Shown here piece by piece: positions 31,470 to 43,463 of a DNA stretch of 64,000 nucleotides. Under the pieces are notes generated by a model. It did not search any database. It had not been told where the DNA came from and saw only the letters and a program-made list of their open reading frames with translations. This stretch comes from Syncephalis fuscata (Eukaryota; Zoopagomycota; Zoopagomycetes; Zoopagales; Piptocephalidaceae): assembly GCA_025786725.1 (NCBI GenBank), contig JAHLTZ010000015.1, positions 124,001 to 188,000 on the forward strand, read 5' to 3'. A program made the position numbers and the translations under genes. Numbering within the stretch: the stretch's first letter is position 1; the number at the start of each line of letters is the position of its first letter.

Positions 31470-32799
31470 TTATCCAAGTAGTTGGGCGTATTTCAATAGC
31501 TCTTGATCGTTAACTAAATGATTATAATATTGGTTATCAAACGATATGCAAACATCTAGTCCATTCTTAAGTGTTCCACAGGGAGATGGGGCATCGAGTA
31601 TCGTAATAAGTTCTTGAATGGCATTCATAAGTCGTCGACAGCATACTGGATTACCTTCGCCAAAATTTACGGTATAATATCCAAGTTTAGACCAATCGGT
31701 ACTAACAAAATCGGCATGCTTTACCCAATTGGCAGCTCGATCAGCCAAGGATAGTTTACTATGAATGTCGCCGCATGCCATCCAGTCTGGTATAGTTATT
31801 CTTTTACCAGAAATAACTGCTTGTCGATGAGCGAAGGCAACATGACCAATTGAATTGTTTAAAACTTCATCAGCGGTCAGTTGTAGCTCGGTTAAATGTA
31901 CAGCGTTACCAAAATAATTGACAGGAAATTCTGGTAGATTAGGCCGCATGTTAAGCGCAGAATATTCAACTAATGGCTGATCTTTGGGTAAATTACGTGC
32001 TCTTATGCATGCACGCCAAAATAATGCAACTACAACATCAATGGTGGAAACGTGGACTGCTTCATATGCTGCGTCATCTAGCGGTGCTATGGCATCTTTT
32101 TTTAATTGTGTTAATTGATCAAAAGTTAGTCGATACATTAATGATTGTCTTGGCATAAATGATTCATCACTACTAATTTGTGACTTGTTAAAAGCACCTT
32201 GTTCTATTAGTAGTTTATTCGACTCGGGAGAAAGACGTAGAAACTGTCGATCATGGCTGGGCGGTGGCGGTGTTTCTCCACGAGCAAATGCTGCCCATGA
32301 CTTCAATAGCATCGACCATCCAGATCCATCTGCAATGTAATGATGGCCCGCTACACACATAACTAATCCAGAATTGTTTGCAAATCGTGTTATTTTAATG
32401 GCAAGCAATGGCATATTCTCTGTTGATGGTTGTACAATGGCACGCCATTCATTTGTTAAATCTTTGTACGGCCAATCGGGCTCAAATTTTGCAATGTCAT
32501 TTCTGAATCGACTTCGCTTATTAAAACACCTTTGCTAGATGGCCTCACTTCGTATTCGCCATCCTTCCGTTTGGTCAATCGACCACACACAATAGGATAT
32601 TGATTGATTGTTTTGCGAAGACTAATAATCAAAGCATCTATTGGCATAAATCTGCTTTCTGTCGATGATTTTTGTAGAAAAGCAAACGCTGTGCGTATAT
32701 TGGACCGGGAACATAGTCTGCATGGCTTAATTGATACGTCTTCTGTTTAGAAACATTAGCTAACGTTAGCCAAATCTCTCTATCATTTCCCACACTCAT
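31470..32799 (-). CDS. BAHD-type HXXXDG acyltransferase, copy 1
   Basis: Acyl-CoA-dependent O/N-acyltransferase family (PF02458-like). It starts MSVGNDREIWLTLANVSKQK. The catalytic HXXXDG is HHYIADG, and the structural DFGWG-like motif near the end is NFGEG, with Asp changed to Asn. It ends ELLKYAQLLG. It is intronless, unlike the housekeeping genes around it. Two single-base losses interrupt the N-terminal third compared with copy 2 (near 32647 and near 32503, the latter in an A run), after which the frame is intact to the stop. The substrate is unknown; in fungi such enzymes often decorate secondary metabolites. Its 32232-32685 segment is almost identical to copy 2. Confidence 0.75.
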
Positions 32800-33952: not shown

Positions 33953-34399
33953 ATGACTAAGACTGCTTTCATTACACTGATCGCAATGGTGTCTGTGACG
34001 CTGAGCGTACAGTCGACCAACGCTGCATCTCTACAGATGGCTAGTCAAAATAATCAATCTTTCAACACCACGGCTCAAAACACTCTATCCAGGCGGGGCG
34101 ATGGCACTTTTTATAACATAGGGGGCGGATACACAGCCTGTGGCGAAACTCACTCTGATAACGAATTCTACGCGGCCATAGCTCCTTCCTTCTTCACAGC
34201 AGCTAATCGAAACAGTGACCCAATGTGTCAAAAGTGTGCCCTTGTAACTGGACCAAAGGGCCAAGTCAAAGTGCGTGTTAACGATGTTTGTCCATCATGT
34301 GCGCATGATGCTATCGATATGACTCCAGCGGCTTTCAATCAAATTGCCAATCCAGAACAAGGCCGAGTGTCCATTAGCTGGGATTTTACCAACTGTTAA
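33953..34399 (+). CDS. Small secreted double-psi beta-barrel (barwin/RlpA/expansin-like) protein
   Basis: A 148-residue intronless protein. The signal peptide covers about residues 1-24 (cleavage after QSTNA). A short Asn/Gln/Ser-rich propeptide ends in a dibasic Kex2-type site, SRR at 46-48. The mature domain is GDGTFYNIGGGYTACGE through HDAIDMTPAAFNQIA and GRVSISWDFTNC. Six cysteines (TACGE, PMCQKC, VCPSC, TNC) fit three disulfides. The conserved Asp (122, in AIDM) of the barwin/expansin fold is present. Such proteins bind or loosen polysaccharides or act as secreted effectors; which applies here is unknown. It stands alone within the accessory island and has a strong TATA box. Confidence 0.85.
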   Translation: MTKTAFITLIAMVSVTLSVQSTNAASLQMASQNNQSFNTTAQNTLSRRGDGTFYNIGGGYTACGETHSDNEFYAAIAPSFFTAANRNSDPMCQKCALVTGPKGQVKVRVNDVCPSCAHDAIDMTPAAFNQIANPEQGRVSISWDFTNC

Positions 34400-34846: not shown

Positions 34847-36882
34847 CTAAATTGTTAATAAATTGCTTAATGGCTGTGTAATAGTCTTAATACAAACAAT
34901 ATCAATAAATATACTATTGATATTGTCAATAAAATGGCTAATGTTTTGTGATTGTAGTGAATACAAATTGGATACGAACATGATATAGCAATTTGATTGC
35001 ATATAATTAAAATAAAGCCATATGTTTATTACTTCAAATTTGCATATCTGAATAGACATAGATGAATGCAAGTTTGCTAGTAATACAATAGGATCATGGC
35101 TAAATATGAATAAACAAGCATTGGTTGGACTTGCGATATAAATAGACTGAACGGCAGTTGTCAAATGGTCTTGTCCTTTACCGAACATATACCTAAAGTG
35201 CATTGAACTAGCAAATGTAGTTGTAATACCAATGCTGATGTCTTGAAAGTGCCGGTTATTCTATGTTCATAAATGTACATATTATATGTCATATAATTAG
35301 CGTATAGCAAATTATGTGCAATATTACTTACTTTCTATTAGTATAAATTATTAAACATGCACAGTGCATGACATATATTGAATAAATAGTCAAGTATTTT
35401 ACAATGCGCTTACCAGCTATTAACACAAATTGTTAAATATAAAATACATATAGCATATGCTTAGAAAATGATTAATATTCATTCTACTTACCAGCTATTA
35501 ACACAAATTATTAAATATAAATAGTATGCGACATGTATTAGTACATGATTGATTAATATAAAATGTCACCTACGCTCTATTGATACATATTATTAAGCAC
35601 AAACAGTGTATGGCATACGTTTAGTGTATAGTTAATTGATATACAATGGAACTTACGAGCTATCATACATGTTATTAAACACACAATATATGGATATGCT
35701 TAATGAATAGTTAATCAATATACAATATTACTTACTAGCTAGTAGTATAAATTATTAAACATGCACAGTGCATGACATATATTGAATAAATAATGAAGTA
35801 TTTTACAATGCCACTTACCAACTATTAACACAGATTTTAAATATATAAGCATGGCATATGTTTAATAAATGACTAGTTAATATACAATGTACATACACTC
35901 TATTCACATTATTAGTAAACACACACAGTGCATATTTATGTTTAGCATATTGTTAACCAATATACAATGCCACTTACTCCCTATTAATGCAAGTCATTAA
36001 ACAGACACAGTGTATGACGTATGTTTAGTGCACATTTAATTGATATACAATCCACTTACATCCTGTTAGTACAAGTACATTAAATAGGCAGTGTATATCA
36101 TGTTTTAGTGCATATGCAATTAATATACAATGCCACTTACTCGCTATTGATGCAGAGTATTAGTTAGACACAGTATATATTGGATGGTTAGCGTATTTCG
36201 ACTGCTATACAATGGCACTTACATGCTATCAATAGAATTATCAGTTACACACAGTACATGGCATATATTTAGTGTGTATTCATTAATCTACAATCCTACT
36301 TACCTTCTATTAATACAAGTCATTAAACACGTACAGTGTGTGCTATAACTTAGCCTCTAATTAATTAATATACGCCGCTAATTACCTTCTATTAACATAC
36401 ATTGTTGAGCACATACAATGAATGGCATATGATTAGTGAATAGTCGGTTAATATAAAATGTCACTTACTAGCTATAGTACAAATTATTCAAACCACACAA
36501 TACACAATACATAATTAATACGTAGTTAATTTATTTAAAATGCCACTTACCCTCTATTAATACAAGTTGTTAAACATCCACGGTGCATTTCATATGTTTA
36601 ATATGGATTTAGTTAATATACAGCATTACTTACCATCTAGTAAAGCCAAATTAACAGCAAAAGTATATTTAGTGGCTAAATAAATAAATATTATAATTGT
36701 AACATACTTCATGAATTTTATTTAGACTGGTATCCGCGGCTGTACTAACTTTAGTTAACTAAATAATTAGTTATTGTAATTACAGCATACCATTATGATT
36801 TATTTGGACTGGCATCCACCATGGCTGTACTGGCTACAAAAGCCACAAGAATGGTGCAAACGACAGCAATAGAAAGCTTCAT
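34847..36882 (-). CDS. Putative secreted protein assembled from seventeen single-codon exons
   Basis: Exon 1 (36882-36791) encodes a signal peptide, MKLSIAVVCTILVAFVASTA. Exon 2 (36758-36708) is 17 codons. Seventeen 3-nt exons follow, at plus-strand low coordinates 36634, 36551, 36469, 36386, 36304, 36223, 36141, 36060, 35978, 35897, 35819, 35736, 35657, 35574, 35492, 35414 and 35332. Their codons are ATG, AGG, CTA, AAG, AAG, CAT, CGA, GAT, GGA, AGT, TTG, CTA, CTC, AGC, CTG, CTG, AAA, giving M R L K K H R D G S L L L S L L K. A 71-nt intron then joins, in phase 0, a terminal exon from 35260 open for 137 codons (NNRHFQDISIGITTTF to LSNLLTI) with stop at 34847. Every intron is GT...AG, and exons 2 to the last are multiples of three. 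Exon 1 as assembled is one base short of a multiple of three and hits TAA at codon 30; exon 2 resembles its 3' part but has one more A. No known family. The model is predicted and unproven without RNA. Confidence 0.5.
35264..36636 (-). repeat. Array of 17 tandem intron-plus-microexon units, ~82 bp each
   Basis: Unit spacings are 83, 82, 83, 82, 81, 82, 81, 82, 81, 78, 83, 79, 83, 82, 78 and 82 bp. On the minus strand a typical unit runs GTAAGTGGCATTGTATATTA, a middle with ACATATGCCATACACTGTG, then AACTTGTATTAATAG and three variable bases. Donors are GTAAG in 14 units, with single GTAGG, GTATG and GTAAT variants. Acceptors are TAG in 16 and CAG in one. Units are diverged from each other in the middle but keep both splice sites. 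Whatever the gene model, the repeat itself is directly visible. Confidence 0.9.
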
Positions 36883-38610: not shown

Positions 38611-39915
38611 ATGATTGTTGGTGAGATGAACAAAACGTGGTTAGCGTTATATGATGAACGTTTGCAGCAGGTGTATCAACTGAGCCATACAAATTATAGG
38701 CCACCTTCACTTTATATAAACCGATTGCTTTTCTACAAAAATCATCGACAGAAAGCAGTATTTATGCCAATAGATGCTTTGATTATTAGTCTTCGCAAAA
38801 CAATCAATCAATATCCTATTGTGTGTGGTCGATTGACCAAACGGGAGGATGGCGAATACGAAGTGAGGCCATCTAGCAAAGGTGTTTTAATAAGCGAAGT
38901 CGATTCAGAAAATGACATTGCAAAATTTGAGCCCGATTGGCCGTACAAAGATTTAACAAATGAATGGCGTGCCATTGTACAACCATCAACAGAGAATATG
39001 CCATTGCTTGCCATTAAAATAACACGATTTGCAAACAATTCTGGATTAGTTATGTGTGTAGCGGGCCATCATTACATTGCAGATGGATCTGGATGGTCGA
39101 TGCTATTGAAGTCATGGGCAGCATTCGCTCGTGGAGAAACACCGCCACCGCCCAGCCATGATCGACAGTTTCTACGTCTTACATCAAAATAAGATATGAG
39201 CCAAAATTAAAGCTATTTAAGTAAAAGTCAAAATGAAGGCGGCTCTATCACTATCCCAGTTTATAAAACCTTTATTGTTTAATTCATTTCTGATCAGCTT
39301 GTATTGTCAAATAACAATGCAATAAAAACTCTTAGCAAACAAGAGTAAAAAACAAATTGATTTTCCACCATTAATTTCGTATTAGCATTGCTATGGCGAG
39401 CAAGCATCCGAGTTCGACAAATTTCAAAAAATCAACCAATAATTTCACTTTCGGCTTTTAATATGCGCTCTAACATATCTAAATTGCTGATAATTATTTT
39501 GGAAATGCGTACAACATATTAATAGTTCAAATAACAGCAGGTAGTATAGTTGCTATGCACAGCCAGTCAGTAAATAAAGCCCGATCAGAAATAAAAGACG
39601 CATGGCTCTTATTTTCAAAACTTCAAAATAATAGTGCAATCACTAACCTAGTTCCTGATTCACAAAATGTTATAGCATTTGCTACTAGTGATTGGTCAAG
39701 ATTTGGCTACTATACACTAGATTTGGTGATGGAGTTCCTGTGTACTATCGAAGGTTTATGTCGTCTGCTCAACGTAGTGCCGTTATCTTTGGCACGCCGC
39801 CATCGCCAAAGACCGCTATAGCAGGCTTAGATGTATGTATCAACAAAGAAGAAAAGATTTATGGCCACTTATTAAAGATCAAGAGCTGTTCACCTACGCA
39901 AAAATTATTGGTTAA
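38611..39915 (+). pseudogene. BAHD acyltransferase copy 2: intact converted 5' half, decayed 3' half
   Basis: The N-terminal 190 codons are open from MIVGEMNKTWLALYDERLQQ through HHYIADG to HDRQFLRL. The frame then meets TAA three codons later (39190). Homology to copy 1 continues past it with further in-frame stops (four TAA and one TGA in about 190 bases) and later frame changes: FVLALLWRASIRVRQISKNQ, then DNYFGNAYNI, then FGDGVPVYYRRFM, ending TYAKIIG before TAA at 39915. Positions 38725-39180 are nearly identical to copy 1 although sequences on both sides differ strongly, the mark of gene conversion. Any expressed product would lack the DFGWG half of the enzyme. Confidence 0.8.
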
Positions 39916-40313: not shown

Positions 40314-41646
40314 TTAACCAAGCAATACGGCATACGACATAAACTCTTTGTCATTAATTAGACGTTCACTATGCTCTTTTTCAATGGTAATGCATAAATC
40401 ATATCCAATTTTTGAAGTATTCGGAGATGGAGCCGAATCAAAAATGGCAACAAACATGCGACTCGTGTATATATAGCGTCGACAGCGCGTGGGCGTCCCT
40501 TCACCAAAATCAACGGTATAATAACCAAACTTTGACCAATCCGTATGAATAAAATCTGAAGTTGTTAGCCAATTTTCTCTTCTCTTAACCAAAGATTCAG
40601 TGCTATGGATTTCAGATCTTCCTACCCAAACATCAATTGGCTCGTTTTTTGCCACTGTAACAGCCTGGCGATGCATCGCCGATATACGACCAATACTAAG
40701 ATTAAGTACTTCACCAGCAGTCATTTGAAGGTTACTAAGATTAAGTGTATTACCAAAATAGTTATCAGGAAGGTCCGGCACAAAAGGCCGCATATTAACT
40801 GCTCCATTATTAATTACAATATGAGTGTTGGGTAGTTGCCGCGCTTTAATCGTTGCTCTCCATAACAGCATAATCACTACATCCATAGTTGAAAACCAAT
40901 CGGTTTCGCGTTCCTTTTCACTAAGTGATTCGATGGCTGTTTGTTTTAAAAGGGCCAATTTATCTGGACTAAAGTGAAATCCCAAAGCACAACCATCTTT
41001 TAATTTTCCACCATAATTCAGCTGCTCACCAATACTTGATGGGTGTTGTCTTTTTTGCGGCTTAATTAACGCTGAATCTAGTCGTAGTAGACGACGATCA
41101 TGATTAGGTATTATTGGTGCTTCTCCACGTGCTAAAGCGGCCCATGTCTTTAACAAAATAAAAAAGCCGCCTTCATCTGCAACATAATGATGGCAAGCAA
41201 TACACAGGGCTAGACCAGAATTATTAGCGAAACGGGTCAGCTGAACTGCAAATACCGGTTCTTCTTCGGGTGGCAAGCGAGAAAGTGCATCCAAGTCTGA
41301 CGAGACACAAGATTGTCCCCAGTTTGGTTCAAATATGGATATATCGTTGCTAGAAAACGATTCGCCAAATCTTACGCCTTGTTGAGATGGTCGTATCTCA
41401 TATTCACCATCATCTCGACAGGCGAATCGACCATAAAGAATAGGAAAGTATCTAGTGTTTTATGCAACGCTTCAACCAAAAATCCGTTGACATAAAATTG
41501 GCGCTTTGTTGTTCATTTTTATAGAATAAAAATCTTTGTGGGCATGTTGGTCCCACTACATAGTCAGCATGACATAATAGATATGTCTTATTAGCATGAC
41601 TATTTTTTGGCACTAGTCGTATTTCTGTTGTATAATCGATGGTCAT
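40314..41646 (-). CDS. BAHD-type acyltransferase, copy 3
   Basis: An intronless gene beginning MTIDYTTEIRLVPKNSHANK and ending FMSYAVLLG. The catalytic motif is HHYVADEGG (HXXXD retained, next residue Glu rather than Gly) and the late motif is DFGEG. It is about 90% identical to copy 4. Two single-base losses relative to copy 4, near 41483 (GGATTTTTGG against GGATGTTTTGG) and near 41451, throw the first third out of frame; from the FPILYGRF region onward the frame is open to the stop. Given the deletion pattern of this assembly the gene may be functional. Acyl acceptor unknown. Confidence 0.7.
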
Positions 41647-42129: not shown

Positions 42130-43463
42130 TTAACCAAGCAATACGGCATACGACATAAACTCTTTGTCATTAATTAGACGTTCACTATGCTCTTTTTCAA
42201 TGGTAATGCATAAATCATATCCAATTTTTGAAGTATTCGGAGATGGAGCCGAATCAAAAATGATAACAAGCATGCGACTTGAATCTATATAGCGTCGACA
42301 GCGCGTGGGTATTCCTTCGCCAAAATCAATGGTATAATAACCAAACTTTGACCAATCCGTATGAATAAAATCTGAAGTTGTTAGCCAATGCGCTTTTCTG
42401 TCTTCCAAAGATTCAGTACTATGGATTTCAGATCTTCCTACCCAAACATCAATTGGCTCGCTCTTTACCGCTGTAATAGCCTGGCGATGCATCGCCGATA
42501 TACGACCAATACTAAGATTAAGTACCTCACCGGCCGTCATTTGAAGGTCACTAAAACTAACTGTATTACCAAAATAGTTATCGGAAGGTCTGGCACAAAA
42601 GGCCGCATATTAACTGCTCCATTATTAATTACAATATGAGTATCGGGTAGTTGCCGCGCTTTAATCGTTGCTCTCCATAACAGCATAATCACTACATCCA
42701 TAGTTGAAAACCAATCGGTTTTGCGTTCCTTTTCACTAAGTGATTCGATGGCTGTTTGTTTTAAAAGGGCCAATTTATCTGGACTAAAGTGAAATCCCAA
42801 AGCACAGCCATCTTTTAATTTTCCACCATAATTCAGCTGCTCACCAATACTTGATGGGTGTTGTCTTTTTTGCGGCTTAACTAACGCTGAATCTAGTCGT
42901 AGTAGATGACGATCATGATTAGGTATTATTGGTGCTTCTCCACGTGCTAAAGCGGCCCATGTTCTTAATATAAGAAAAAAACTACCTTCATCTGCAATAT
43001 AATGATGGCAAGCAATACACAGGGCTAGACCAGAATTATTAGCGAAACGGGTCAACTGAACTGCAAATACCGGCTCCTCTTCGGGTGGCAAGCGAGAAAG
43101 TGCACCCATATCTAACGAGACACAAGATTGTCCCCAGTTTGGTTCAAATATGGATATATCGTTGCTAGAAAACGATTCGCCAAATCTTACGCCTTGTTGA
43201 GATGGTCGTATCTCATATTCACCATCATCTCGACAGGCGAATCGACCATAAAGAATAGGAAAGTACTCTAATGTTTTATGCAACGCTTCAACCAAAACAT
43301 CCGTTGACATAAAATTGGCGCTTTGTTGTTCATTTTTATAGAATAAAAATCTTTGTGGACACGATGGTCTCGCTACATAGTCAGCATGACATAATAGATA
43401 CGTCTTGTTAGCATGACTATTCTTTGGTGTTAGCCATATCTCTGCCGTGTGATCAATAGTCAT
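42130..43463 (-). CDS. BAHD-type acyltransferase, copy 4
   Basis: An intronless gene beginning MTIDHTAEIWLTPKNSHANK, with catalytic HHYIADEGS, then NGAVNMRPFVPDLP, DFGEG and the end FMSYAVLLG. The frame is open for about 307 codons, then shifts near 42585, where copy 3 reads CTTCCTGATAAC and copy 4 has one base less, and resumes in the next frame to the stop. The break falls inside the conserved DNYFGN segment. Either this copy has lost its C-terminal domain or one base is missing from the assembly. HXXXD and DFGEG are both present in sequence. Confidence 0.72.

Follow-up and report, generated by a model that had tools for sequence, protein, structure and literature searches.

What could a gene encode in which one intron follows another with only three nucleotides between them? 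The question arises from a 64,000-nt stretch of the Syncephalis fuscata genome (hereafter the window), in which an earlier note had described a minus-strand gene of seventeen consecutive one-codon exons, preceded by a signal-peptide exon and joined in phase 0 to a terminal exon open for 137 codons. The 17 tandem units, each an intron followed by 3 nt, are present on the minus strand at 36636–35332, exactly where they had been placed. In all of them (17/17) the acceptor is followed by 3 nt and then by the next donor, and none of the triplets is a stop (0/17), again as the note had it. The triplets are, in order, ATG AGG CTA AAG AAG CAT CGA GAT GGA AGT TTG CTA CTC AGC CTG CTG AAA. They are preceded by a TAG acceptor in 16 cases and by CAG in one, and followed by the donor GTAAGT in 13 of 17, with GTAATT, GTATGT, GTAGGT and GTAAGC occurring once each. 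The parts of the locus, all on the minus strand, are as follows.

36791..36882, minus strand: first exon of the window copy, encoding the signal peptide, MKLSIAVVCTILVAFVASTAMVDASPNKS; in-frame TAA at 36795-36793, donor GTATGC at 36790
36637..36790, minus strand: interval between exon 1 and the array, defined from the alignment of paralogs and the locus models
35332..36636, minus strand: array of 17 triplets and the 16 introns (75-80 nt) between them; read in phase 1 as EAKEASRWKFATQPAE, with K and a stop following across the last junction
36636, 36553, 36471, 36388, 36306, 36225, 36143, 36062, 35980, minus strand: first bases of triplets 1 to 9
35899, 35821, 35738, 35659, 35576, 35494, 35416, 35334, minus strand: first bases of triplets 10 to 17
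35261..35331, minus strand: last intron of the array, 71 nt
35256..35260, minus strand: opening of the terminal exon, with AA as the remainder of the last phase-1 codon and TAA at 35258-35256 ending the frame
34847..35255, minus strand: 3′ untranslated region, from 1-nt indels among paralogs and identity to the sequence 3′ of intronless stops

The window array and its genomic family

Read in phase 1, the window array gives EAKEASRWKFATQPAEK before the TAA. The same terminal-exon arrangement, a completed codon and then TAA, is found in the models of two other loci (L027 and L045), and a TAA stands at the matching place in the intronless loci L040, L046, L047 and L048. The interval between exon 1 and the array contains extra sequence in the window and in L019 compared with L020 and L027, in which the first intron is 72 nt. 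The upstream signal-peptide exon proposed at 36882 does exist, but its frame is closed by the TAA before the donor is reached. Because this stop precedes the donor, the window copy is probably a dead, non-functional member of its family, and its earlier description as a coding gene is not supported.

Contig C57, which contains the window, is one of 299 in an assembly of 28.95 Mb. One junction-class pattern, allowing up to three mismatches, has 1,976 matches in this genome and 0 in a reversed control. The junction TTAATAG-N3-GTAAGTG occurs 933 times genome-wide. With a spacing of 0–2 nt, the same flanks occur four times, always at 2 nt (reversed control, 1), and with a spacing of 4–30 nt they occur 36 times, some of these enclosing a true 3-nt junction (reversed control, 17). 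A search with the signal-peptide exon of the family returned 335 candidates, of which 150 were scored, giving at least 150 genome matches at E ≤ 0.01 that include intronless genes. Twelve loci (L034–L045) were hand-picked from this list and are therefore a non-random set; 11 carry arrays and one (L040) is intronless. By inspection, a hydrophobic N terminus is conserved across the family, which points to a signal peptide and a secreted product. We hold with considerable confidence, for the explanation as a whole, that the window array is one member of a large S. fuscata family of small secreted proteins. Candidate secreted proteins of this kind probably number more than 100 in this fungus, whose genus is placed in the Zoopagales and is described as one of mycoparasites (excerpt of PMC10386755).

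Proteins were searched with a single array product and with six products aligned; every sequence returned at the chosen thresholds came from S. fuscata. Ten different annotated S. fuscata proteins were matched, and none equals a spliced array product. Some of the ten consist of exon 1 plus a short other sequence, the three that were checked are intronless, and the course of two more (P0006 and P0007) does not follow the triplets. Six spliced products and four annotated paralogs gave no Pfam match above the curated cut-off; weak matches were to Toxin_2 (E = 0.0015, L042), zf-C2HC_2 (E = 0.021, L041) and Gloverin (E = 0.051, P0010).

Length and reading phase of the internal exons

To measure exon length, introns were chained using splice-site profiles that contain no exon bases, with exons of 0–40 nt allowed. 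Without any length prior, internal exons were 3 nt long in 258 of 259 cases (27 chains). An enlarged set of 58 chains, duplicate loci included, gave 573 of 577, the remainder being three exons of 2 nt and one of 6 nt. The longest prior-free chain, in L013, has 41 internal 3-nt exons between 42 introns. Intron lengths fell within 74–80 nt in 267 of 286 cases, with 60–100 nt allowed. The window array was missed by this frame-agnostic search, which applies strict splice-site scores, and was examined on its own.

Among 30 intron-bearing copies, counting near-copies, 27 have an exon 1 that ends in phase 1; L019, L021 and the window are the exceptions. We analysed reading phase in 52 non-redundant arrays from 30 loci, comprising 611 triplets and assembled with neither a 3-nt prior nor a ban on stops. 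Joined and read in phase 1, they contain 0 stops in 559 codons, which come from related paralogs and so are not 559 independent tests; counted by locus, phase-1 stops are found in 0 of 30. Shuffling triplets between arrays (5,000 times) produced a mean of 25.6 phase-1 stops and a minimum of 11, and shuffling within arrays a mean of 27.3 and a minimum of 13. Phase 1 also yields 69 cysteines against 40.3 in shuffles, with 0 of 5,000 shuffles reaching 69, and the phase-2 reading contains 38 stops. One fact complicates this picture: in the same arrays phase-0 stop triplets are scarce as well (0 of 611). Because stops that would arise across neighbouring triplets are avoided even though the triplets lie ~80 bp apart in the DNA, we infer that the triplets are joined in order and translated. 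A backwards reading of the array, raised by the terminal ATG of L013, was dropped, the strand being fixed by the splice sites.

The same genome contains uninterrupted relatives. Annotated P0008, P0010 and P0012 are contiguous open reading frames, and the P0008 locus (L046), like L040, L047 and L048, shares with the array genes its 5′ untranslated region, signal peptide and Arg-Arg, which are followed by a cysteine-rich mature part and a TAA. All four spliced models compared align with the intronless genes in the 5′ untranslated region; the intronless 3′ region aligns with the spliced models of L041, L042 and L045, and the 3′ end of L034 gave no alignment. The sequence is CKECINEC...CNKPGRCKAECA-stop in P0008 and CRVCLENC...CHTWSTCSRACA-stop in the 32-intron model of L045, with identical spacing C-x2-C-x3-C ... 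C-x5-C-x3-C-A-stop. Likewise, the array product of L009, TCKCQDEDGNCTSC, matches intronless P0012, ACKCRDDDGYCTSC, the two having the 13-residue motif CKCxDxDGxCTSC in common. These two array products carry the cysteine scaffold or motif of intronless paralogs, and this fixes phase 1. The structure of P0008 was predicted poorly, with a mean pLDDT of 62 from a two-sequence alignment.

Taken together, the phase-1 end of exon 1, the stop-free phase-1 codons and intronless paralogs encoding the same kind of protein support a reading in which each 3-nt exon would supply positions 2 and 3 of one codon and position 1 of the codon after it, with an intron splitting every codon. The run of consecutive 3-nt exons seen in the window was therefore recognised correctly, and such runs extend through secreted-protein genes far beyond what could be seen there, but their interpretation as whole codons is not supported in view of these same three observations.

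In L045 the stop lies directly 3′ of the last predicted acceptor, positioned as in the intronless genes, and in L041 it lies a few codons later. L042, L010, L011 and L016 use an acceptor ~40 nt deeper in the region homologous to the intronless 3′ untranslated region, and their stops fall elsewhere. The window region 34847..35255 is 71–77% identical to the post-stop sequence of four intronless members over the first 120–300 nt. The 137-codon frame is open, as described, yet because of this homology and of 1-nt indels among paralogs we read it as 3′ untranslated region and not as a terminal coding exon.

Predicted genes, splicing and alternative readings

Full-length models were built with a 3-nt prior and with in-frame stops forbidden. 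The principal models, all predicted, are as follows.

L034: exon 1 of 94 nt, 49 triplet exons and 50 introns; product ...RR-ERYRFCNMDPFSCGLACNNPSRGGDNGHQICTDCTYSECMEKCKTYCEK
L041: 41 introns
L042 and L045: 32 introns each
L027, related to the window gene and with its exon-1 frame unbroken: 13 introns, ...RREAKEASRWKFTK
L022: ...RRAVAPLAKRALDRRGPRPATI

In L034 only 13 nt of fetched sequence lie beyond the end of the model, which leaves its last junction uncertain; the prior-free search regained 30 of its triplets, in four pieces. L027 admits two models, one ending at the TAA after 13 introns and one running on past it. No clean full model was obtained for L012, L015, L016, L025, L026, L035, L036, L043 and L044.

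Several departures from the basic pattern were noted in the models. One or more exons of 6 nt, chiefly close to the array's 5′ end, appear in L010, L011, L012, L016, L025, L037, L038, L041, L042, L044 and L045, and a 15-nt exon appears in L013, L022 and L023. Both look as if some intron positions had never received their intron. The mature part lacks cysteines in L013, L014, L021–L024 and L028 and is rich in Gly/Ser/Arg or in Pro; some of these members have RR and KR sites (for example, AVAPLAKR), and annotated P0013 (RRAVEPLAKR) looks related to them. A repeated element of ~400 bp containing GAATTTGCGCTGCTTCC lies inside array regions and confuses the gene models (L012, L015, L016, L023, L025, L032, L035, L036, L043 and L044; for example, at about L032:3518-3950). 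One end of it looks tRNA-like by eye, and ARAGORN found no tRNA in the eight loci scanned.

We infer splicing from coding constraint in the genome sequence. On this footing, living members very probably consist of a signal exon, tens of 3-nt exons separated by phase-1 introns, and a terminal exon, the spliced triplets encoding a secreted protein. Exon 1, of ~94–97 nt, would encode the conserved signal peptide and a propeptide ending in Arg-Arg, likely a Kex2-type cleavage site. Tens of mostly 3-nt exons would follow, set between spliceosomal introns of mostly 74–80 nt that are all in phase 1. The terminal exon would complete the last split codon, reach a stop immediately or some codons later, and carry the 3′ untranslated region. 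Joined, the triplets would give a short and often cysteine-rich mature protein, Gly/Ser/Arg- or Pro-rich in some members, which may have an extracellular role, perhaps directed at the host fungus. The introns would be removed by intron definition one after another, so that with each splice the upstream exon lengthens by three bases. Such stepwise removal is suggested because two introns flanking a 3-nt exon could hardly be handled at once and no exon definition can operate across 3 nt; the short introns, GTAAGT-type donors and TAG acceptors suit intron definition.

Three other readings were weighed. The intron-bearing copies could be mostly decaying by-products, with only the intronless paralogs at work and the open phase-1 frames a recent leftover. 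The exon-1 frame lesions of the window copy, L019 and L021 fit this reading, as do the lost acceptor of L020, the 2-nt exons of L014 and the fact that the three mapped annotated members are all intronless. We nevertheless consider it improbable, given that exon-1 phase is kept in 27 of 30 copies and phase-1 stops are found in 0 of 30 loci despite array introns that have diverged far (0.57 identity between loci).

There is only a very slim chance, in our estimate, that the arrays are a noncoding minisatellite or composite intron, spliced out whole or untranscribed, with GT...AG-N3 as its repeat unit. Unit length is indeed regular, Tandem Repeats Finder reports part of the array as a 79–81-bp repeat, and annotated P0006 and P0007 do not track the triplets. 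Such a repeat would leave unaccounted for the joint stops across adjacent triplets (0 of 559 against 25.6), the enrichment of phase-1 cysteines and the presence in phase-1 products of the scaffold of intronless genes. In a plain minisatellite, moreover, the triplet should drift with its unit, yet it is near-random beside introns that are 95–98% identical.

The phase-0 array of the earlier note, with whole-codon exons joined to a 137-codon terminal coding exon, has next to no chance of being right and was dropped: it has in its favour the stop-free window triplets, the open terminal frame and 0 stop triplets among 611 in the array set (9.1 expected if positions are independent), and against it the phase statistics and the 27 of 30 copies whose exon 1 ends in phase 1, the match of phase-1 products to intronless paralogs, the mere 2 cysteines in 611 phase-0 residues, a terminal frame broken by 1-nt indels in paralogs and homologous to post-stop sequence of intronless genes, and stop triplets elsewhere in the genome. 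These last occur at 4 of 573 places matching one junction pattern (five TRR matches, one of them TGG), so that the absence of stop triplets, true of the window, does not hold genome-wide. For the scarcity of phase-0 stops we propose two sources, the dinucleotides at positions 2–3 of phase-1 codons and putative splice-site conflicts, in which TAG-TAG would add an acceptor and TAG-TAA an overlapping donor.

Origin of the introns and relation to known gene architectures

Among 170 within-locus intron pairs that are 95–98% identical, the downstream triplet differs in 86%, compared with 96% for random triplet pairs. At ≥98% identity, triplets differ in 75% of 20 pairs within loci and in 28% of 39 pairs between loci, the latter being paralogous gene copies. 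Mean intron identity within arrays is 0.66–0.68 at 1–11 units apart and 0.59 at 12 or more; between loci it is 0.57 over compared sites. Near-identical introns beside unrelated triplets suggest that multiplication or homogenisation of introns mostly leaves the codons behind. In L013 some blocks look, by eye, as if duplicated with their triplets, and most near-identical introns carry differing ones. Unit duplication as the whole story is weakened by the differing triplets beside 95–98% identical introns. A rise in mismatches near intron ends, predicted for conversion purged near exons, was absent from the 79-nt intron profile (664 pairs in which both triplets differ, 20 in which both agree).

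Intronless genes may have received their introns by intron-exact insertion, or short-tract conversion may have acted together with codon selection. The intronless copies could be the ancestors or could be products of complementary DNA. More tentatively, and against our own leaning, intronless effector genes may have become codon-by-codon split genes through intron-exact copying, their message being assembled three bases per step, like a ratchet, on a frame-safe 3-nt grid. A copying process such as reverse splicing or an introner would keep inserting or homogenising ~79-nt introns in phase 1 at nearly every codon. On the resulting grid, recombination within introns could gain, lose or exchange single residues with the frame unshifted.

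Near-identical array pairs were observed on single contigs (C1, C2, C24 and C57), some of them inverted; examples are L021/L022, L019/L020 and L013/L014. L021 and L022 share their array fully and differ by an exon-1 frame lesion, from an assembly error or a young duplication. In the close paralog pair L013/L014, divergence is 41%, 21% and 59% at the three triplet positions in turn and 6% in introns, but the arrays may be out of register and so give no rate.

Introners, or introner-like elements, are near-identical introns found in many genes of one genome. The S. fuscata arrays have the feature of near-identical introns at unrelated exon sequence; we know of no case of introners at nearly every codon of one gene. 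At recursive splice sites (AG|GT), the acceptor adjoins the donor and an intron is removed stepwise. In the S. fuscata arrays, by contrast, each step would leave a constant 3-nt residue in the mRNA.

Among the closest known architectures is that of the flatworm micro-exon genes (MEGs), which have many consecutive short exons, mostly multiples of three, that automatic annotation sees poorly, and whose products in schistosomes are secreted (excerpts of PMC10526429 and PMC7653826). The array gene models fall within the working definition given in the excerpt of PMC7653826, namely a minimum of seven exons, of which half or more are <70 nt with a length divisible by three, in runs of at least four. 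A secreted product with a hydrophobic N terminus (here by inspection) is a further likeness to schistosome MEGs. As described in the same excerpts, schistosome MEG short exons are mostly 15 bp (6–81 in the text and 3–81 in the abstract), number 10–20 and are separated by introns of 0.1–5 kb. The S. fuscata arrays differ in all three respects: exons are 3 nt in 573 of 577 cases, introns are mostly 74–80 nt, and runs reach 41 triplets in L013 and, in the model of L034, 49. The likeness rests on gene architecture, no sequence relation to flatworm MEGs having been seen.

Aphid bicycle genes carry cysteine motifs. Their products are putative effectors, and the many internal exons are unusually small and almost all begin at codon position 2 (excerpt of PMC9168663), the same internal-exon phase as in the S. 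fuscata arrays. This animal family, with ~17 exons on average and no run of 3-nt exons described in that excerpt, is likewise compared by gene architecture. Exons of 1–3 nt can be spliced, as reported in excerpts for 3-nt exons of Ncam and Drosophila TnT, each occurring singly (PMC8042270), for a 1-nt exon of Arabidopsis APC11 (PMC4674806) and for a 1-nt exon of Fusarium CYP621A, for which the evidence was an intronless relative together with SRA reads (PMC12940212). Those, however, are one per case, against dozens in series here. For APC11 the authors suggest intron definition with recursive splicing (PMC4674806, excerpt), and the stepwise scheme proposed here is close to that suggestion. The term ‘consecutive micro-exons’ is an MEG criterion in the excerpt of PMC7653826 and an alignment error in that of PMC10166558. 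Searches of open-licence literature on Syncephalis or Zancudomyces, including an excerpt of PMC10386755, gave no description of genes of this kind. Searches of open-licence literature on microexons and tiny exons yielded no precedent for runs of 3-nt exons. Microexon-rich genes and single 3-nt exons are known already, and what appears new, within these searches, is the run of 3-nt exons, extreme in degree. Judged from their sequence, the S. fuscata arrays would be the most finely split genes that we found described.

A practical lower limit on exon size is assumed, set by collision of the splicing complexes on both sides. If our reading is true, pure intron definition passes this limit dozens of times per transcript, and faithfully enough to make protein. 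The array genes would then be a natural test of ordered co-transcriptional splicing, and intronless paralogs beside arrays would offer a direct system for bulk intron gain or loss. The arrays also point to an annotation blind spot for candidate secreted proteins in one fungus.

The neighbourhood of the window array includes two further features. Adjoining it at 33953-34399 (plus strand) is an expansin/barwin-like protein of 148 aa that looks secreted and contains a double-psi beta-barrel (DPBB_1, E = 8e-13). Four clustered genes or fragments of a transferase family (PF02458) lie at 31473-32799 (minus strand), 38611-39910 (plus strand), 40317-41646 (minus strand) and 42133-43463 (minus strand), of which the copy at 38611-39910 is spread across several frames.
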